From NCBI RefSeq assembly GCF_002234405.1, contig NZ_NMQT01000033.1:1-64000 (forward strand): a stretch of 64,000 nucleotides of DNA. The letters are read 5' to 3'. The translations under genes and the position numbers were made by a program. A model generated the notes under the pieces. That model did not search any database and had not been told where the DNA came from. It saw only the letters and a program-made list of their open reading frames with translations. Every line of letters starts with the position of its first letter. Within the stretch, counting starts at the first letter, position 1. Positions 1-49,271 of this stretch are shown here, in pieces. This stretch comes from Amycolatopsis thailandensis. Lineage in GTDB: Bacteria > Actinomycetota > Actinomycetes > Mycobacteriales > Pseudonocardiaceae.

Positions 1-14
1 AGGCCTTCACGGAC
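1..14. repeat. Partial copy of the intergenic hairpin family
   Basis: The first bases (AGGCCTTCACGGAC) match the right arm of the hairpins at 20528-20574 and 31155-31205. The other arm would lie upstream of the window, so this is probably the end of another copy located just after the RidA gene's stop codon. Too short to be certain. Confidence 0.45.
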
Positions 15-40
15 ATCACATACGACAGCGGCGGGAACGG

Positions 41-439
41 TCAGGCCGTGGCGGCGGTGACGTCGAGTTCGACGAGCTGCCCGGGGTAGCCGAGCTGCGC
101 GACGCCGAGCAGGGTGCTCGCGGTCGTGAAGGCCTCCCCGATCCCCGACTCGACGAACCGGTCCCACACGGCCGAAAGCACCTCGGCGTCCGGCGTCACC
201 ACGTAGATCACGGTGCGCACGACGTCGGCCGGGGTCGCCTTGGCGAAGGCGAGCGCGGCGGCGGTGTTCGCGACGACCTGGTCGACCTGCGCGAGCACGT
301 CGCCTTCGACGACCTTGCCGTCTTCGGCGAGCGGGCACTGGCCCGCGAGGTGGATGTCCCGTCGTCCTTCGACGATGGTCACGTGGTGGTAGGTGGGCGT
401 GGGGTGCAGACCGGGCGGATGGTGGCGTTGAATGGTCAC
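41..439 (-). CDS. RidA/YjgF family enamine/imine deaminase
   Basis: A protein of about 132 residues with the RidA (YjgF/YER057c) pattern: GQCPLAEDGKVV near the N-terminus and a C-terminal PGQLVELDVTA segment carrying the conserved strand of the trimer's ligand pocket. Family members hydrolyse reactive enamines and imines, such as 2-aminoacrylate, released by PLP enzymes, in the cytosol. The GTG at 439 (VTIQRHHPPG) is chosen; in-frame ATGs at 448 and 454 are alternatives. The gene runs divergently from mtnA. Some members are not deaminases, so the exact substrate is open. Confidence 0.85.
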   Translation of the reverse strand: MTIQRHHPPGLHPTPTYHHVTIVEGRRDIHLAGQCPLAEDGKVVEGDVLAQVDQVVANTAAALAFAKATPADVVRTVIYVVTPDAEVLSAVWDRFVESGIGEAFTTASTLLGVAQLGYPGQLVELDVTAATA

Positions 440-43181: not shown

Positions 43182-45368
43182 TTATGCGGGGAAAGCGTCC
43201 TTCAGCCCCGTCAAAGCGGGCGGCAAGGCGCCCTCGTGGAGGACGCCGAGCCGCTGCGTAGCGCGCGTAAGCGCCACGTAGAGCTCAGCCGCACCGCGTG
43301 GGCCATCGGCCAGGATCCGTTCCGGGTCCACGACGAGGACGGCGTCGAACTCGAGCCCCTTCGTCTCCGAGGCGGGCACGGTGCCCGGCACCCCCGGCGG
43401 CCCGATCACGACGCTGGTGCCTTCACGCCCGGCCTCGTCCTTGACGAACTCCTCGATGGCGCCGGCCAGGGAGTCCGCGGAGACCTGCCGCGCCCACGGC
43501 CGGACACCGTTGGACCGCACCGATTCCGGCGCCCGGACGTCCGGCGCGAACTCGGCCAGCACCGACGCGGCGACGGCCATGATCTCCGACGGCGTGCGGT
43601 AGTTCACCGTCAGCGACCGGTACACCCACCGGCCAGGCACGTACGGCTCCAGCATCGCGCCCCACGTCCGCGCCCCGGCCTCGGACCGGCGCTGCGCCAG
43701 ATCCCCGACGACGGTGAACGACCGGTTGGGACAACGCCGCATCAGCACCCGCCAGTCCATTTCGGACAGTTCCTGCGCCTCGTCGACCACGACGTGCCGG
43801 TACGTCCAGTCCCGGTCCGCCGAGGCACGCTCGACGAGGCTGCGCGTGTCGTGCTCGACGAAGCGGTCGGCGAGTTCGTCGGCGAAGAGGAGGTTCTCCG
43901 CCGACAGCATGACGTCCTCGTCCATCTCCTCGCGGTCGAGCTTCATCGTGTCGAGCACACCTTCCGCGTACTCGGCCTCGGCCTTCTTCTCCCGCGCGAG
44001 GGCCTTCTCCGCCGCCTGGTCCGCCGTCTTGTCACGGCCGAGCAGATCGACGAGTTCGTCGAGCAGCGGCGTGTCCGACACCGTCCAGGCTTCCCCGTCC
44101 GCGCGCAGCAACGCCTGATCGGCACCGGCCGCGCGAAGCCGTTCCGAGGACGAGAACAGCGACCCCAGCAGGCTTTCGGGCGTCAGGATCGGCCAGAGCT
44201 CGGCGAGCGCGGTGGTGAACGTCTCGCTCTCGGCCAGTTCCTTCAGCAAGTCCTTCCGCAGCCGCTCCCATTCGTCACGGTCGTCCCGGCTGAGCCAGCC
44301 GCGGCCGATCCGCGCGATCGCCCGCTCGGTCAGGACGTAGGTGACGATGTCGGTGAACGTCACCCTCGCTTCGTTGTGCGGCAAGCCACTCTTGCGCGCC
44401 TCGTCCCTGGCCCATTCCGCGGTCTCGGCGTCGATCCGGACCGTGACGTCGGCCAGCTCGATCAGCACCGGCTCCTCCGGCAGCCGCTGACGGTCGGCGA
44501 CGGCGGCCTTGAGGACGTCCAGCATCTTCAGCGACCCCTTGAGCCTCGTCGCCTCCGGACCGTCCTCGGCGGTGACCTGCTTGCCGGGCACGAAATCACC
44601 GGTGGTCATGAACACCACGTCGGTCTCGCCCAGCGATGGCAGGACCCGCCCGATGTGGTGCAGGAACGCCGGATTCGGCCCGACCACGAGCACACCGTGG
44701 CGTTCCATCCGCTCGCGCTGCGTGTAGAGCAGGTACGCGACGCGGTGCAGCGCCACCACGGTCTTGCCGGTGCCCGGCCCGCCCTCGATCACCAGCACCC
44801 CGGGGTGCTCGTGCCGGATGATCTCGTCCTGTTCGGCCTGGATCGTCGCGACGATGTCGCGCATCCCCTCGCCACGCGGCGCGTTGACGGCCGCGAGCAG
44901 CGCCGCGTCACCCTCCGCGTCGCCGCCGGGACGGCCGAACACCTCGTCGGTGAACCCGAGCAGCTCACGCCCGTGCGTGTGGAACTGACGGCGACGGCGC
45001 ATCTTCTCCGGCGTCGCGGCGGTCGCGGTGTAGAACGGGCGCGCCGCCGGGGCACGCCAGTCGAGCAACACCGGTTCGTAGTCGTTCTCCTCGTCGAAGA
45101 GACCGATGCGGCCGATGTGGGAGGTCTCCCCCGCGAGGCTGTCAAGCCTGCCGAAGCACAGGCCGTTGTCCACGACGTCCAGCCGCCGCGACTCCCTGCC
45201 CAGCGCGCGCACCTCGACGTCGCGTTCCATGGCCGTGCCGCCGGTCCCGCCCAGCGCGGCCTGGAACTCCCCCTTCACCCGCACGCGTTCGGCGTCCAGG
45301 CGCGCGTAGAGCCCGGCGACGTAGTCGCGTTCGGACCGGAGCTCTTCTTCATGACCCTGAGTTGACAC
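43182..45368 (-). CDS. HelD-type RNA polymerase-recycling helicase-like ATPase
   Basis: A 728-residue SF1 (UvrD/Rep-like) ATPase of the HelD family. An N-terminal charged helical region (about 1-80) fits the coiled coil that enters the RNA polymerase secondary channel; Walker A is GGPGTGKT near 196-203, VVVDEAQELSEMDW is the Walker B region, and ELYVALTRATQRLGVL is motif VI. HelD removes RNA polymerase from DNA, and the actinobacterial class (HelR) protects it from rifamycins. The GTG at 45368 has GGGAG 5 nt upstream. A RAE-like palindrome lies 54 bp upstream of the start. Confidence 0.9.
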   Translation of the reverse strand: MSTQGHEEELRSERDYVAGLYARLDAERVRVKGEFQAALGGTGGTAMERDVEVRALGRESRRLDVVDNGLCFGRLDSLAGETSHIGRIGLFDEENDYEPVLLDWRAPAARPFYTATAATPEKMRRRRQFHTHGRELLGFTDEVFGRPGGDAEGDAALLAAVNAPRGEGMRDIVATIQAEQDEIIRHEHPGVLVIEGGPGTGKTVVALHRVAYLLYTQRERMERHGVLVVGPNPAFLHHIGRVLPSLGETDVVFMTTGDFVPGKQVTAEDGPEATRLKGSLKMLDVLKAAVADRQRLPEEPVLIELADVTVRIDAETAEWARDEARKSGLPHNEARVTFTDIVTYVLTERAIARIGRGWLSRDDRDEWERLRKDLLKELAESETFTTALAELWPILTPESLLGSLFSSSERLRAAGADQALLRADGEAWTVSDTPLLDELVDLLGRDKTADQAAEKALAREKKAEAEYAEGVLDTMKLDREEMDEDVMLSAENLLFADELADRFVEHDTRSLVERASADRDWTYRHVVVDEAQELSEMDWRVLMRRCPNRSFTVVGDLAQRRSEAGARTWGAMLEPYVPGRWVYRSLTVNYRTPSEIMAVAASVLAEFAPDVRAPESVRSNGVRPWARQVSADSLAGAIEEFVKDEAGREGTSVVIGPPGVPGTVPASETKGLEFDAVLVVDPERILADGPRGAAELYVALTRATQRLGVLHEGALPPALTGLKDAFPA

Positions 45369-45421
45369 AGACTCCCATTTCGCCAGGTTTCGGCTACGGC
45401 GAGTGAGTCTGAAGCATGACC

Positions 45422-45442
45422 GGGGTCTTGTGGCAAGTCCCC
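45422..45442. promoter_or_regulatory. Rifamycin-associated-element-like palindrome
   Basis: The core CTTGTGGCAAG is flanked by GGGGT on one side and TCCCC on the other: an imperfect 21-bp inverted repeat. From memory, the published rifamycin-associated element is a GGGG-CTTGCGGCAAG-type palindrome found before rifampin-inactivating and HelR/HelD genes in actinomycetes; the core differs by one base. Its place upstream of a HelD gene supports the assignment. Confidence 0.75.
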
Positions 45443-45527
45443 CCATGCGCTATATGTTTATTACGGAGGGAGTTACTCCGTTCATGTCTCGGCCGCTCGG
45501 GTCCGGTCTCGCGCGAGCTCCGCCAAC

Positions 45528-45580
45528 GTTGCGAAAGCCACTTTCACAACGTTGAACGCTGCGAAAGTGGCTTTCGCAAC
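45528..45580. repeat. Hairpin of the GAAAGTGGCTTTC family
   Basis: Outer arms of 18 nt (45528-45545 and 45563-45580) are exactly complementary; the intervening 17 nt hold a smaller CAACGTTG-type palindrome. The stem shares GCGAAAGTGGCTTTC with the hairpin at 7022-7074. It is 20 bp after the STAND gene's stop codon and probably terminates it. Confidence 0.65.
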
Positions 45581-45599: not shown

Positions 45600-48500
45600 T
45601 CACTCCCCGCACGGCGGCGCGTATTCGAGCCCCGGAAAGTACTTCTCCCACTCTTCCCTGGTGATCCTCGGCGTCGCCAGCCGGCAGATCTCCTCGCCCA
45701 CTCGTGCGGTGTCCGTCTGCCACAGCTGGACACCGCTGCTCCCGATCGCGAGCGTATGCCCGTCGTCCCGGTACGCCAGCGAGTTGACCGTCGCGGCGAA
45801 GCCGGTGAGCTGCGCCGATTCGACCGGATTCCGCGGATCGGCCAGATCCCAGACGCGCACCGTCCGGAACGCCGAAGCCGCCAGTTCCTTCCCGGACGGG
45901 CCGAACACGAGCGGCCCGACGCCTTCGGGATGGCCGCCGAGTTTCGCCAGCCGCACGGCGTGCGCGCGATCGGTGATGTCCCACAGGTAGACGTTCCGAT
46001 CGCTGCTGCCCGCCGCGACCGTGCGGCCGTCGGGGCTGAGCGCCATCTTGAACAACGTGCCGCTGTCGGGCCACAGGGTCGACACCAGCCCCGGTCGCTT
46101 GGGGTCGGCGACGTCCCACAGCGTCACGGCGGACGAGTCGGGGCCTTGACCGGACACGAGCGTCCGCCCGTCGGGGGTGAACGCGAGCGACCAGACCGTG
46201 CCGTCACCGACCGGCAGCACTCGAGGCTCGGCGAAGCGCGTCGGATCGCCAACGTCCCAGAGCTGGATCGGCCCGTCGTCGTGGCCGGAGGCGAAGGTCT
46301 TCCCGTCCGGGCTGAACGCGAGCGAGTAGGTCGGCAAGACCGTGGTCGACGCCGTCAGGTTCGGGGCGGCCGGATCGCCGATGTCCCAGCGCTGGAGCAC
46401 GAACTTCCCGCCGACACCGGCACCGTCGTGCGCCGCCAGCGCGAGGCTGCGGCGGTCCGGGCTCAGCGCCACGGCGGTGACGGTGGCCGGGCCGGGGAGT
46501 TTCGCGAGCTGTCTCGGGGCGCGGAGGTCGTCCATCGCCCAGAGCCGCACGTCGTCCCCGGAGGTGACGAGGATCCGGCCCTGCTCGGTGAACAGGCCCA
46601 CGTTCCAGCCCGCGCTCGAAGCCAGCGCCAGTTCGCCGACGTCCTGCAGCCGGACGGTCCGGTCGGCGCTGGTGGACACGATCGTCTTGCCGTCCGGCGA
46701 GAACGCCGCCCACCAGATCGCGTTCGTGTGCCCGGACAGCGGCGGCAGTTCCTTCGCCGGTCCCGTGACGTCCCAGAGGCGGACGGACTGGTCGTCGCCC
46801 GCGGTCACCACGAGCCTCCCGCTCGGGCTGAACCCCGCCGCCCAGACGACGGCCGGGGTGGTCAACGTCGTCAGCGGGCGCGGCACCGCCGGATCCGCGA
46901 CGTCCCACAGTTTCGCCGTGCGGTCCCAGCTCGTGGTGAGCAGCCGTTTGCCGTCCGGGCTCCACGACGGGGTGAGCTGGAGGTCCTGGTGTCCGGAAAG
47001 GACGGAGCGCCGCCGCGGCGCGGACGGCGTGGTGACGTCCCAGAGTTCCGCCGTCCAGTTCGTGTTCGTGACCGCGAGCAGTTTGCCGTCGGGGCTGAAG
47101 ACCGCGCGTTCGAGCCGCTCGGCCGGGATCCCGCCGAGCGGTTTCGGCGCGCCGAGGTCGGCGACGTCGGTGAGCCGGACGGTGCGGTCGACGGAACCGG
47201 TGACCAGAACGCGGCCGTCGGGGCTGAAATCGGTGGAGAGCAAGGTGTCCTGATGACCGGTGACGTCGGCCTTCCGCACCGGGCGCCGCGGCTCGGTCAG
47301 ATCCCAGAGCCGGACCCGGTGATCCCGGGTGACGGTCGCCAAAGCGTGTCCGTCGCGGCTGAACGCGAGCGGCCCGCGAACCTCCCCCGAACCGGGCAAC
47401 GTCGACAGGAGCGCCGGACGCCGCGAATCGGCGATGGACCACACCCGCGTCGACCGGTAGGAGTCGGAGGTGATCATGAGCTGCCCGCTCAGCACCACGG
47501 TGACGTCTCCGGGGTCGAAGGTCATCCGGGTGGCGAACGGCGCCGCCATGGACGCGAGCAGGCCGTCGTGGGTCTCCTGGATCGGCGCGAGCCGGTACGC
47601 GGCGAGGCTGAGCTGCGTCGACAGCGCCGGGTTCGACTCCCGCAACGTCTTCGCGTCGACCACGGCCTTGCGCGCGAGCGCCACGTTCCGCTGATCGGTC
47701 GCGGTGTTCTCGGCATCGACGGCGTACACGATGGCCACCGCCGCCAGCACCAGCAGCACGTGAAGGAGCGCGACAAGTCTTCGCAGCCTCTTGGTCCGTT
47801 TGCGGACGACGGTGGTCTCCTCGGCTTCGGCGTCGAGCCCTGCCTCCAGGAACTCCCGCTCGCGCGTGCTCAGCGCGTCCGGCTCCCTGGCCGCCCATTC
47901 GGCCGCGAGACCCAGCCGCGTGCCGCGATAGAGGCTGCCCTTGTCGCGATCGAGCGATTCCCACAGATCGGTCGCCTCGGCCAGCTGCCGATGCAGGCGG
48001 TGCCCTTCGCGGTCCTCCGCGAGCCAGTCGCGCAGCCTCGGCCAGCTGCGGATCAAGGCCTCGTGCGCGATCTCGACGCCGTCGCGGTCGAGGACGAGCA
48101 GACGCGCGTCGGCGAGGCGTTCGAGGACCTCCCTGGTCGCCGGATCGTCGTCGAGCTCGCGCCGGTTGAGACGGCGCTTCGTGTCTTCAGTGCCTTCGCC
48201 GGGCGCGGTCATCCGCAGGAAGATCTGCCGGACGACGCTCCGCCTGTCCGGCTCCAGATCCGTGTAAACGGCCTCCGCCGTCTGGGCGATCGCGTTGAGG
48301 ATCCCGCCCGCCGCTTCGTACGCCGCGCTGGTCAGCGTGATCCCCTGACGCCGCCGCCAGGTCTCCAGCAACGCGTGCGAGACGAGCGGGAGCATCGCGG
48401 GCTGGCCGGTGGCGTCGGCGACGAGCGTCGTGACCAGCGCGGCCTCGACCCGGCAGCCCGCGCGGACGGCGGGTTCGACGATCGCGGTCCGGAGTTCGTC

Positions 48501-49271
48501 GGCGGTCATGGGGCCGACCATCACCTGCGCGTCGGTCAGGGCCTCGACGAGCCCAGCGTGACGGCAGAGGTGACCGTAGAAGTCCGCGCGGACGCCGAGG
48601 ACGACCCGGGTCCCGTGCTCGTCGCCGGCGAGCGCCAGCAGCGCGTCGACGAACTTCTCCCGTTCGGCCTGGTCGCCGCAAAGCGTGTAGACCTCCTCGA
48701 ACTGGTCGACGATCAGCAGCCGTCCCTCGGCGTCGAGGTCTTCTTCGAGCGGGTGCGCGCCAGGCGTGCGGAGAACGACAGGACGTTCGCTCACCGCCGC
48801 CAGCCCGGCCCGCAGGACGGACGACTTTCCCGAACCGGACGCGCCGAAGACACCGACGAGCCGTCGTTCCGAGAGCTTGCCGGTCAGCTCGGCGACCAGG
48901 CGCTCGCGGCCGAAGAACCGGGCGGCGTCGGCGGTCTGGAACGCGGCCAGCCCCAGGTACGGGAGTTCAGCGGCAACACAGTCGTCAGGGACCTCGGACG
49001 CCGCCGCGAGCCCGGCGGCGACCGCGCGCCAGCGTTCCTCCCAGGCCGCGACGTCGCCGCCGCACGCGGTGACGTACGCGGTCGTGACCGCCAGCCCTGG
49101 CAGTTTCCGGCCGCCCGCCGCTTCGGACAGCGCGGCGGCCGAGTAACCGGCGCGGGTCGAAAGCTCGCGGTACGTCGGCCCTCCGGCTTGCTCACGAAGC
49201 AGGCGAAGATCCGCCGCGAACTCCACGACGACGTCTTCGCCCGGTCCCAGCGGACGCTCACGTCTCGGCAC
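45600..49271 (-). CDS. STAND NTPase with N-terminal HTH, membrane helix and WD40 repeats
   Basis: A 1223-residue signalling protein. Residues about 15-85 are an XRE-like HTH module, about 105-460 an nSTAND1-type P-loop NTPase (Walker A FGASGSGKSS at 142-151, Walker B LLIVDQFEE at 185-193), about 494-514 one strong hydrophobic helix, and about 570-1223 some 14 WD40 repeats ending in blades of the RLWDV type, enough for two seven-bladed propellers. ATG 49271 fits the HTH start. It is divergent from a LuxR-type gene, 94 bp away. Such proteins are ligand- or partner-triggered switches; the trigger is unknown. Confidence 0.88.
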   Translation of the reverse strand: MPRRERPLGPGEDVVVEFAADLRLLREQAGGPTYRELSTRAGYSAAALSEAAGGRKLPGLAVTTAYVTACGGDVAAWEERWRAVAAGLAAASEVPDDCVAAELPYLGLAAFQTADAARFFGRERLVAELTGKLSERRLVGVFGASGSGKSSVLRAGLAAVSERPVVLRTPGAHPLEEDLDAEGRLLIVDQFEEVYTLCGDQAEREKFVDALLALAGDEHGTRVVLGVRADFYGHLCRHAGLVEALTDAQVMVGPMTADELRTAIVEPAVRAGCRVEAALVTTLVADATGQPAMLPLVSHALLETWRRRQGITLTSAAYEAAGGILNAIAQTAEAVYTDLEPDRRSVVRQIFLRMTAPGEGTEDTKRRLNRRELDDDPATREVLERLADARLLVLDRDGVEIAHEALIRSWPRLRDWLAEDREGHRLHRQLAEATDLWESLDRDKGSLYRGTRLGLAAEWAAREPDALSTREREFLEAGLDAEAEETTVVRKRTKRLRRLVALLHVLLVLAAVAIVYAVDAENTATDQRNVALARKAVVDAKTLRESNPALSTQLSLAAYRLAPIQETHDGLLASMAAPFATRMTFDPGDVTVVLSGQLMITSDSYRSTRVWSIADSRRPALLSTLPGSGEVRGPLAFSRDGHALATVTRDHRVRLWDLTEPRRPVRKADVTGHQDTLLSTDFSPDGRVLVTGSVDRTVRLTDVADLGAPKPLGGIPAERLERAVFSPDGKLLAVTNTNWTAELWDVTTPSAPRRRSVLSGHQDLQLTPSWSPDGKRLLTTSWDRTAKLWDVADPAVPRPLTTLTTPAVVWAAGFSPSGRLVVTAGDDQSVRLWDVTGPAKELPPLSGHTNAIWWAAFSPDGKTIVSTSADRTVRLQDVGELALASSAGWNVGLFTEQGRILVTSGDDVRLWAMDDLRAPRQLAKLPGPATVTAVALSPDRRSLALAAHDGAGVGGKFVLQRWDIGDPAAPNLTASTTVLPTYSLAFSPDGKTFASGHDDGPIQLWDVGDPTRFAEPRVLPVGDGTVWSLAFTPDGRTLVSGQGPDSSAVTLWDVADPKRPGLVSTLWPDSGTLFKMALSPDGRTVAAGSSDRNVYLWDITDRAHAVRLAKLGGHPEGVGPLVFGPSGKELAASAFRTVRVWDLADPRNPVESAQLTGFAATVNSLAYRDDGHTLAIGSSGVQLWQTDTARVGEEICRLATPRITREEWEKYFPGLEYAPPCGE

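Follow-up and report, generated by a model that had tools for sequence, protein, structure and literature searches.

The question raised by this locus is whether the palindrome lying just upstream of a HelD-type gene in the 64,000-nucleotide stretch of Amycolatopsis thailandensis DNA analysed here (the window) is a genuine rifamycin-associated element (RAE) or merely resembles one. The genus Amycolatopsis includes rifamycin producers. According to the original prediction, the palindrome is RAE-like with one altered core base, carries GGGG and CCCC flanks, precedes a HelD gene of the actinobacterial HelR class and might mark a silent, rifamycin-responsive resistance locus. Cumulatively, our results argue, with a probability of roughly 0.85, for a bona fide RAE which sits in its usual promoter module and would drive a HelR-type HelD of class II.

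Read directly on the plus strand, positions 45420-45444 are CC-GGGG-T-CTTGTGGCAAG-T-CCCCCC, with GGGG at 45422-45425, the core at 45427-45437 and the C-run at 45439-45444. Read on the minus strand, towards the HelD gene, the element and its surroundings are ATATAGCGCATGGGG-GGACTTGCCACAAGACCC-CGGTCATGCTTCAGACT. The RAE itself is a 19-bp palindrome at 45423..45441 (minus strand; GGGACTTGCCACAAGACCC in gene sense), numbered 1-19 in gene sense such that the window coordinate equals 45442 minus the position, and it is a zero-mismatch site of the extended pattern described below. Against GGGGCTTGCGGCAAGSCCC, the canonical RAE used as reference, the site has 3 mismatches; the expected number of matches of this quality (up to 3 mismatches) in the window is 0.07, and at least one turned up in 6 of 100 shuffles. 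The degenerate form GGGnCTTGCsGCAAGnCCC is matched at 18 of 19 positions. As anticipated, a single core base is changed, G to A at position 11, which gives the gene-sense core CTTGCCACAAG, so that positions 9 and 11 no longer form a symmetric pair; the half-sites and flanks are intact.

The HelD gene that follows is encoded on the minus strand. The mechanically called open reading frame (43182-45446) starts too early, because its first codon lies upstream of the RAE and similarity to HelD begins only at residue 27-32; the GTG at 45368, preceded by a Shine-Dalgarno-like GGGAG (45372..45376, minus strand) recognised by eye just before it, is the likely start of helR (43182..45368, minus strand, 728 aa, assigned by NCBIfam and by alignment to HelD), at a distance of 54 bp from the RAE. 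The 728-aa protein scored 1366 bits with the HelD_MYCSM model (cut-off 1051) and 1352 bits with HelR_2 (cut-off 1100), two models which do not separate on this protein, and the latter score supports its assignment to the actinobacterial HelR class. It can be aligned across its length with M. smegmatis HelD (PDB 6yxu) and others, and has the ATP-binding P-loop GGPGTGKT, conserved with 6yxu. The tip of the primary-channel loop reads MDEDVML versus MDDEDHLL in M. smegmatis, being one residue shorter, and the Glu-Asp pair (Glu484-Asp485 in M. smegmatis) is kept with one gap placement only. Upstream of helR lies a gene (45600-49271, minus strand) for a large protein that appears by eye from the translation to be WD40-repeat-like; a distant HelD paralog on contig C113 (L017:1-510) also adjoins an ORF which looks WD40-like.

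The 11-bp core by itself is not rarer than chance. In the window, 7 matches with up to one mismatch were found versus 9.09 expected, and in the whole genome the exact degenerate core occurred 14 + 13 = 27 times versus 49 + 37 = 86 for a reversed-pattern control; CTTGTGGCAAG exactly as written is present in 3 places. The original prediction had held that occurrence of the core at many unrelated places would speak against it, and this is what the genome scan returned for the bare 11-bp core and not for the full module, since the extended motif TANNGCG-N6-GGGNCTTGNNNCAAGNCC occurs without mismatch at exactly five positions of the 9.35-Mb assembly, one of them being the window site. When up to 3 mismatches were allowed, 10 + 12 matches stood against 10 + 8 in the control, a near equality because of which only exact matches to the extended motif are meaningful. 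The significance of the site therefore comes from its flanks and context. Exact CTTGC(G/C)GCAAG occurs at six places, four of which carry the wider module with zero mismatches and two of which are without it. Among the near matches is a module-like site on contig C113 (62882-62912, minus strand) with 3 mismatches and an intact TATAGCG, a class whose counts lie near control. A different palindrome, TTGCGAAAGTGGCTTTCGCAA, is found in the window at 45529-45579 and genome-wide at 125 + 128 places (up to 2 mismatches; reversed control 0), often as opposite-strand pairs at a distance of 30 bp, in the manner of REP doublets.

The extent of the module was defined by aligning 48 helR sites, the window included, without gaps, which revealed conservation from about -31 to +45. 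A weight matrix derived from the flanks of these sites, with the RAE left out, was run on 66 further loci, namely six from the same genome and one site each from 30 family genomes and 30 class genomes, taken from pools in which 297 of 390 and 127 of 296 genomes, respectively, had a pattern match; three sites near a locus end were dropped. Keeping in mind that the search pattern fixed GGG plus the core, that helR sites, partly of the same family, served to train the matrix, and that the set is partly redundant (L104 repeats L082, and 19 of the 30 class loci bear one family label, f19), 61 of the 63 scored sites had values above 0, the lowest being 0.5 (L138), and the two module-less cores of the own genome scored -42 and -62. 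The sites span nine family labels (f1, f5, f12, f19, f33, f35, f38, f41 and f46), and a subset of 32 of them, made up of 28 class loci plus the remaining four sites of the own genome, displayed the same conserved columns.

Within the block, a TATAGCG box (45448..45454, minus strand, positions -12..-6) has TA at -12,-11 in all 61 sites, a CC lies at 45465..45466 (minus strand, positions -24,-23; 58/61), and the hexamer CAGACT (45406..45411, minus strand, positions 31-36), which resembles a -10 element of a putative gene-ward promoter P2, conforms to CAnnnT in 55/61; all three features are absent from both module-less controls (0/2). The putative -35 of P2, TTGCCA (45436-45431), falls within the RAE and leaves a spacer of 19 bp. 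On the plus strand, TATGTT (45453..45458, positions -11..-16) forms a presumptive second -10-like hexamer, which mirrors CAGACT exactly across the centre of the RAE, with a putative -35 of TTGTGG at 45428-45433 and again a 19-bp spacer. A consensus scan of 45340-45540 that allowed spacers of 16-18 only, shorter than the 19 proposed here, returned no sigma-70-type promoter.

The 61 sites are followed by 10 helR genes, 19 genes for HelD of 36-40% identity, 14 rox, 10 rgt, 6 rph and 2 arr. Most of these calls were made by tblastn with own-genome proteins, and NCBIfam was used for four own-genome proteins, the two arr, the rph other than L158 (five of six) and, among the 19 distant HelD, three proteins whose first match was the HelR model. 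For the 50 sites whose gene strand was given by tblastn, the orientation of the module read from the flanks alone matched the direction of the gene every time (50 of 50). By their scores, the 61 sampled sites form a single rigid block of about 75 bp, and the roughly one hundred copies suggest that the RAE switch is larger and more symmetric than its usual 19-base description. In the full-text literature searched we recognised no account of a larger module; the primary RAE papers lie beyond that coverage, and hence we do not claim it as unreported.

In this genome, the five zero-mismatch modules precede the present HelR, two Rgt-like glycosyltransferases and two Rox-like proteins. Rgt was the best NCBIfam match of both glycosyltransferases, at 370 and 669 bits, under the cut-off of 800. 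One of the Rox proteins (contig C60) reached 881 bits, above its cut-off of 800, and the other monooxygenase (C388) scored 349 bits with the rifampin monooxygenase model, under cut-off, and 356 with a related subfamily. There are five HelD proteins, of which one only has the zero-mismatch module before its gene, and a scan of the assembly found none on the contigs of the other four. A second HelR_2-class protein, 66% identical, is encoded at C39:33149-35314 (locus L014) and passes that model with 1230 bits. The genome has a single match to rpoB, and the RNA polymerase looks drug-sensitive, the rifampicin-pocket region having the sequence of the sensitive type. Together with the four further RAE modules, the RAE-HelR gene makes the locus a routine, well-supported addition.

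The association between RAE and helR was next assessed in 80 named relatives, the best 80 of 550. Among these best 80, an RAE with at least 17 of 19 positions was present in 47 (between 350 bp before and 130 bp after the start of the match), and a strict RAE in 53 when the fetched 2 kb upstream were considered; in the remaining 27 of the best 80 the strict RAE was absent from this fetched DNA, and for this reason the RAE-helR link is not universal. Gene order in some loci indicates how the link may arise. Five named loci (L029, L035, L051, L080, L084) have the order RAE-rgt-helR and two (L037, L042) RAE-rox-helR, while others retain only the start of rgt between RAE and helR (L032, 74% over 27 residues; L034, 73% over 41). 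Rgt-like openings were also found between RAE and helR in L036 and L043 and before rph in L152 and L158, and a rox-like opening between RAE and helR in L073. In a shuffle test, from whose test set L034 was left out, 0 of 300 shuffles reached the score for L032, L036, L043, L152 and L158 (against rgt) or for L073 (against rox). The L073 case is the weaker one because the peptide is a short nucleotide-binding motif; its match to rox60 residues 1-12 is translated RAE and is no evidence, since the rox60 ORF used starts inside the RAE, and what counts are residues 34-50 and the shuffle test of the 12-residue peptide. L067 was not supported as an rgt remnant (222 of 300 shuffles reached its score against rgt53, and the other three proteins gave no signal either). 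MRVL-like openings after GGGAG in L032, L036 and L043, considered as a conserved leader peptide, turned out to be rgt-gene remnants. As rgt or rox remnants persist between the RAE and helR or rph, the promoter would have been inherited by the next gene, and some helR and rph genes apparently gained it by deletion of the intervening rgt or rox. The window locus itself holds no rgt or rox remnant.

The altered base could be a sign of decay. However, the CTTGCCACAAG core within the module is common to 18 of 80 congeneric genomes, the own genome included, with one copy each, which argues against it. We aligned 16 clade loci (six from the window plus ortholog set and ten from a genus scan, near-duplicates included and gaps counted as differences) and found 0 of 363 invariant columns at -399..-37, where the DNA is unalignable, versus 5/12 at -36..-25, 23/24 at -24..-1, 18/19 in the RAE and 11/17 at 20..36. 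The leader from P2 to the GTG (45369-45405, positions 37..73) has 33 of 37 columns invariant versus 47 of the 67 first coding columns. The unusual base is a variant fixed in this clade and lies within a conserved block, and the locus is to be regarded as real and selected. In gene sense the change converts the common TTGCGG to TTGCCA, which is nearer the sigma-70 -35 and would make a better one; a higher basal level is our guess.

These results bear on three other readings of the palindrome. That it stands by chance before an unrelated helicase would suit the ordinary frequency of the bare core, but this has a negligible probability given the extended module, the orthologous conservation and the HelR assignment, and we rejected it on context, that is, the five zero-mismatch modules, the shared congeneric variant and the invariant block. 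It is also improbable that the palindrome is a relic and helR constitutive: the three mismatches to the consensus, the loss of one symmetric pair and the new TTGCCA, nearer the sigma-70 consensus, are what such decay might leave, yet the variant is intact across the congeners, the block is preserved whereas the DNA upstream of it is not, and the same core recurs in an unrelated-looking relative, the Pseudonocardia MAG L073. A leader that works as RNA, as an attenuator or ligand-sensing structure and not as promoter DNA, is unlikely and quite far from our expectation. Inverted repeats can be recognised in the leader by eye, clade columns 37-73 are more invariant than the first coding columns, and in a pairing test on 91 non-redundant sites and nine position sets, with uncorrected p values, the outer palindrome arms (-5..4 x 16..25) paired better within than between loci (p = 0.0024) and two further sets gave p of about 0.02; the other six had p > 0.1. 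RNAalifold, run with no shuffle baseline, yielded -28.6 kcal/mol with RIBOSUM scoring, by other pairs, but -4.1 kcal/mol with the RAE hairpin alone at default. Rfam returned only a chance-level microRNA match elsewhere for the window stretch and none at the gathering threshold in 8 loci, and the fact that no family shows indels between about -33 and +40, together with strong base conservation, fits recognition of DNA better than a structured RNA.

A more open matter is how the promoter DNA is built. The mirrored -10-like hexamers on opposite strands are hinting at a symmetric promoter pair, in which the palindrome would supply a TTGCSG -35 to each strand with -10-like hexamers 19 bp either side, polymerase would bind gene-ward or backward but never both, and a rifamycin-responsive protein or drug-arrested polymerase would tip the balance gene-ward; we consider this arrangement possible, if doubtful. 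Over 109 sites (61 + 48, redundancy kept), TTG occurs at position 6 in sense in 100% and at 14 in antisense in 99%, and antisense TANNNT at -11 (97%) and sense [TC]ANNNT at 31 (94%) are exact mirrors about position 10, with rigid spacing across about 75 bp in the nine family labels. E. coli has bidirectional promoters at which polymerases compete (PMC12825309), and the way in which the RAE mediates rifamycin induction is called unknown in two 2026 papers (PMC12802891, PMC13001253). On the other hand, PMC10719064 reports two sense promoters in M. smegmatis, with the P1 start about 20 bp upstream of the RAE. The left box has two readings, an antisense -10 and a -10 belonging to a sense promoter that lies upstream of the RAE, sense [TC]ANNNT being present at -17 in 87% of the 109 sites. 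The gene-ward hexamer is always CANNNT and never TANNNT, 19-bp spacers are long, known bidirectional promoters have the -10 in common and not the -35, and one conserved AT-rich box could hit the mirror position by chance (a rough guess of 5-10%). In TATAGC itself the sense -10 reading is weak, as every register there lacks the usual final T, although a register starting at -17 is possible. The M. smegmatis promoters, as given in PMC10719064, support P2 as drawn and favour the sense reading of the left box. More speculative still is the proposal that the RAE is the centre of a mirror module of about 75 bp with one palindromic -35 for two divergent promoters, that rifamycin is sensed by a shift in polymerase orientation, possibly without a dedicated sensor protein, and that the cassette is passed between resistance genes upon deletion of the upstream gene. 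A rigid and symmetric block at the 61 sampled sites narrows what could bind there.

Returning to the RAE-driven HelR gene as the preferred reading, sub-inhibitory rifamycin would be sensed through the RAE module, either by a rifamycin-responsive palindrome-binding protein or by RNA polymerase itself, and helR would then be transcribed leftward from P2 (CAGACT, with its -35 inside the RAE; promoter positions are drawn from sequence only). By analogy with published relatives, HelR may bind rifamycin-stalled RNA polymerase and take it off the DNA, and its primary-channel loop may displace the drug. It would act alongside the Rgt-like and Rox-like inactivation genes that follow the other four RAE modules. 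Induction of the window helR by rifamycin, and protection by its product, are both extrapolated from those relatives: the RAE is required for helD induction in M. abscessus, HelR releases rifampicin, and in M. smegmatis the RAE lies about 20 bp downstream of the first of the two starts, over the -35 of the second (all as reviewed in PMC10719064).

The closest known systems are the helR genes of S. venezuelae (SVEN_6029) and M. abscessus (MAB_3189c), which share with the window the 19-bp palindrome with GGG/CCC flanks, a class II HelD downstream, an RAE over the putative gene-ward -35 and the presence of one RAE among several helD paralogs. S. venezuelae has five helD genes, one with an RAE and induced, as reported in PMC8655204, and one RAE among five paralogs is also the arrangement of the window genome. 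The window differs from both in the G to A change in the core, at RAE position 11, fixed in one Amycolatopsis clade, and the published RAE has 19 bp versus a conserved block of about 75 bp here. RAE-controlled rgt, rox, rph and arr have the same module, spacing and gene orientation in the examined sites, but their products inactivate the drug, whereas the predicted HelR protects the target. The dual-promoter rifampicin alarm of B. subtilis helD (PMC12802891) is alike in its close promoters, its control by rifampicin and a possible antisense promoter; there, however, the promoters converge, with starts 39 bp apart and no palindrome, and shortening the distance abolished regulation, whereas a hypothetical RAE pair would be divergent and overlap at the -35. 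Finally, the bidirectional promoters of E. coli (PMC12825309) likewise consist of pseudo-symmetric DNA engaging RNA polymerase both ways, but they share a -10, whereas in the RAE module the shared part would be a palindromic -35.
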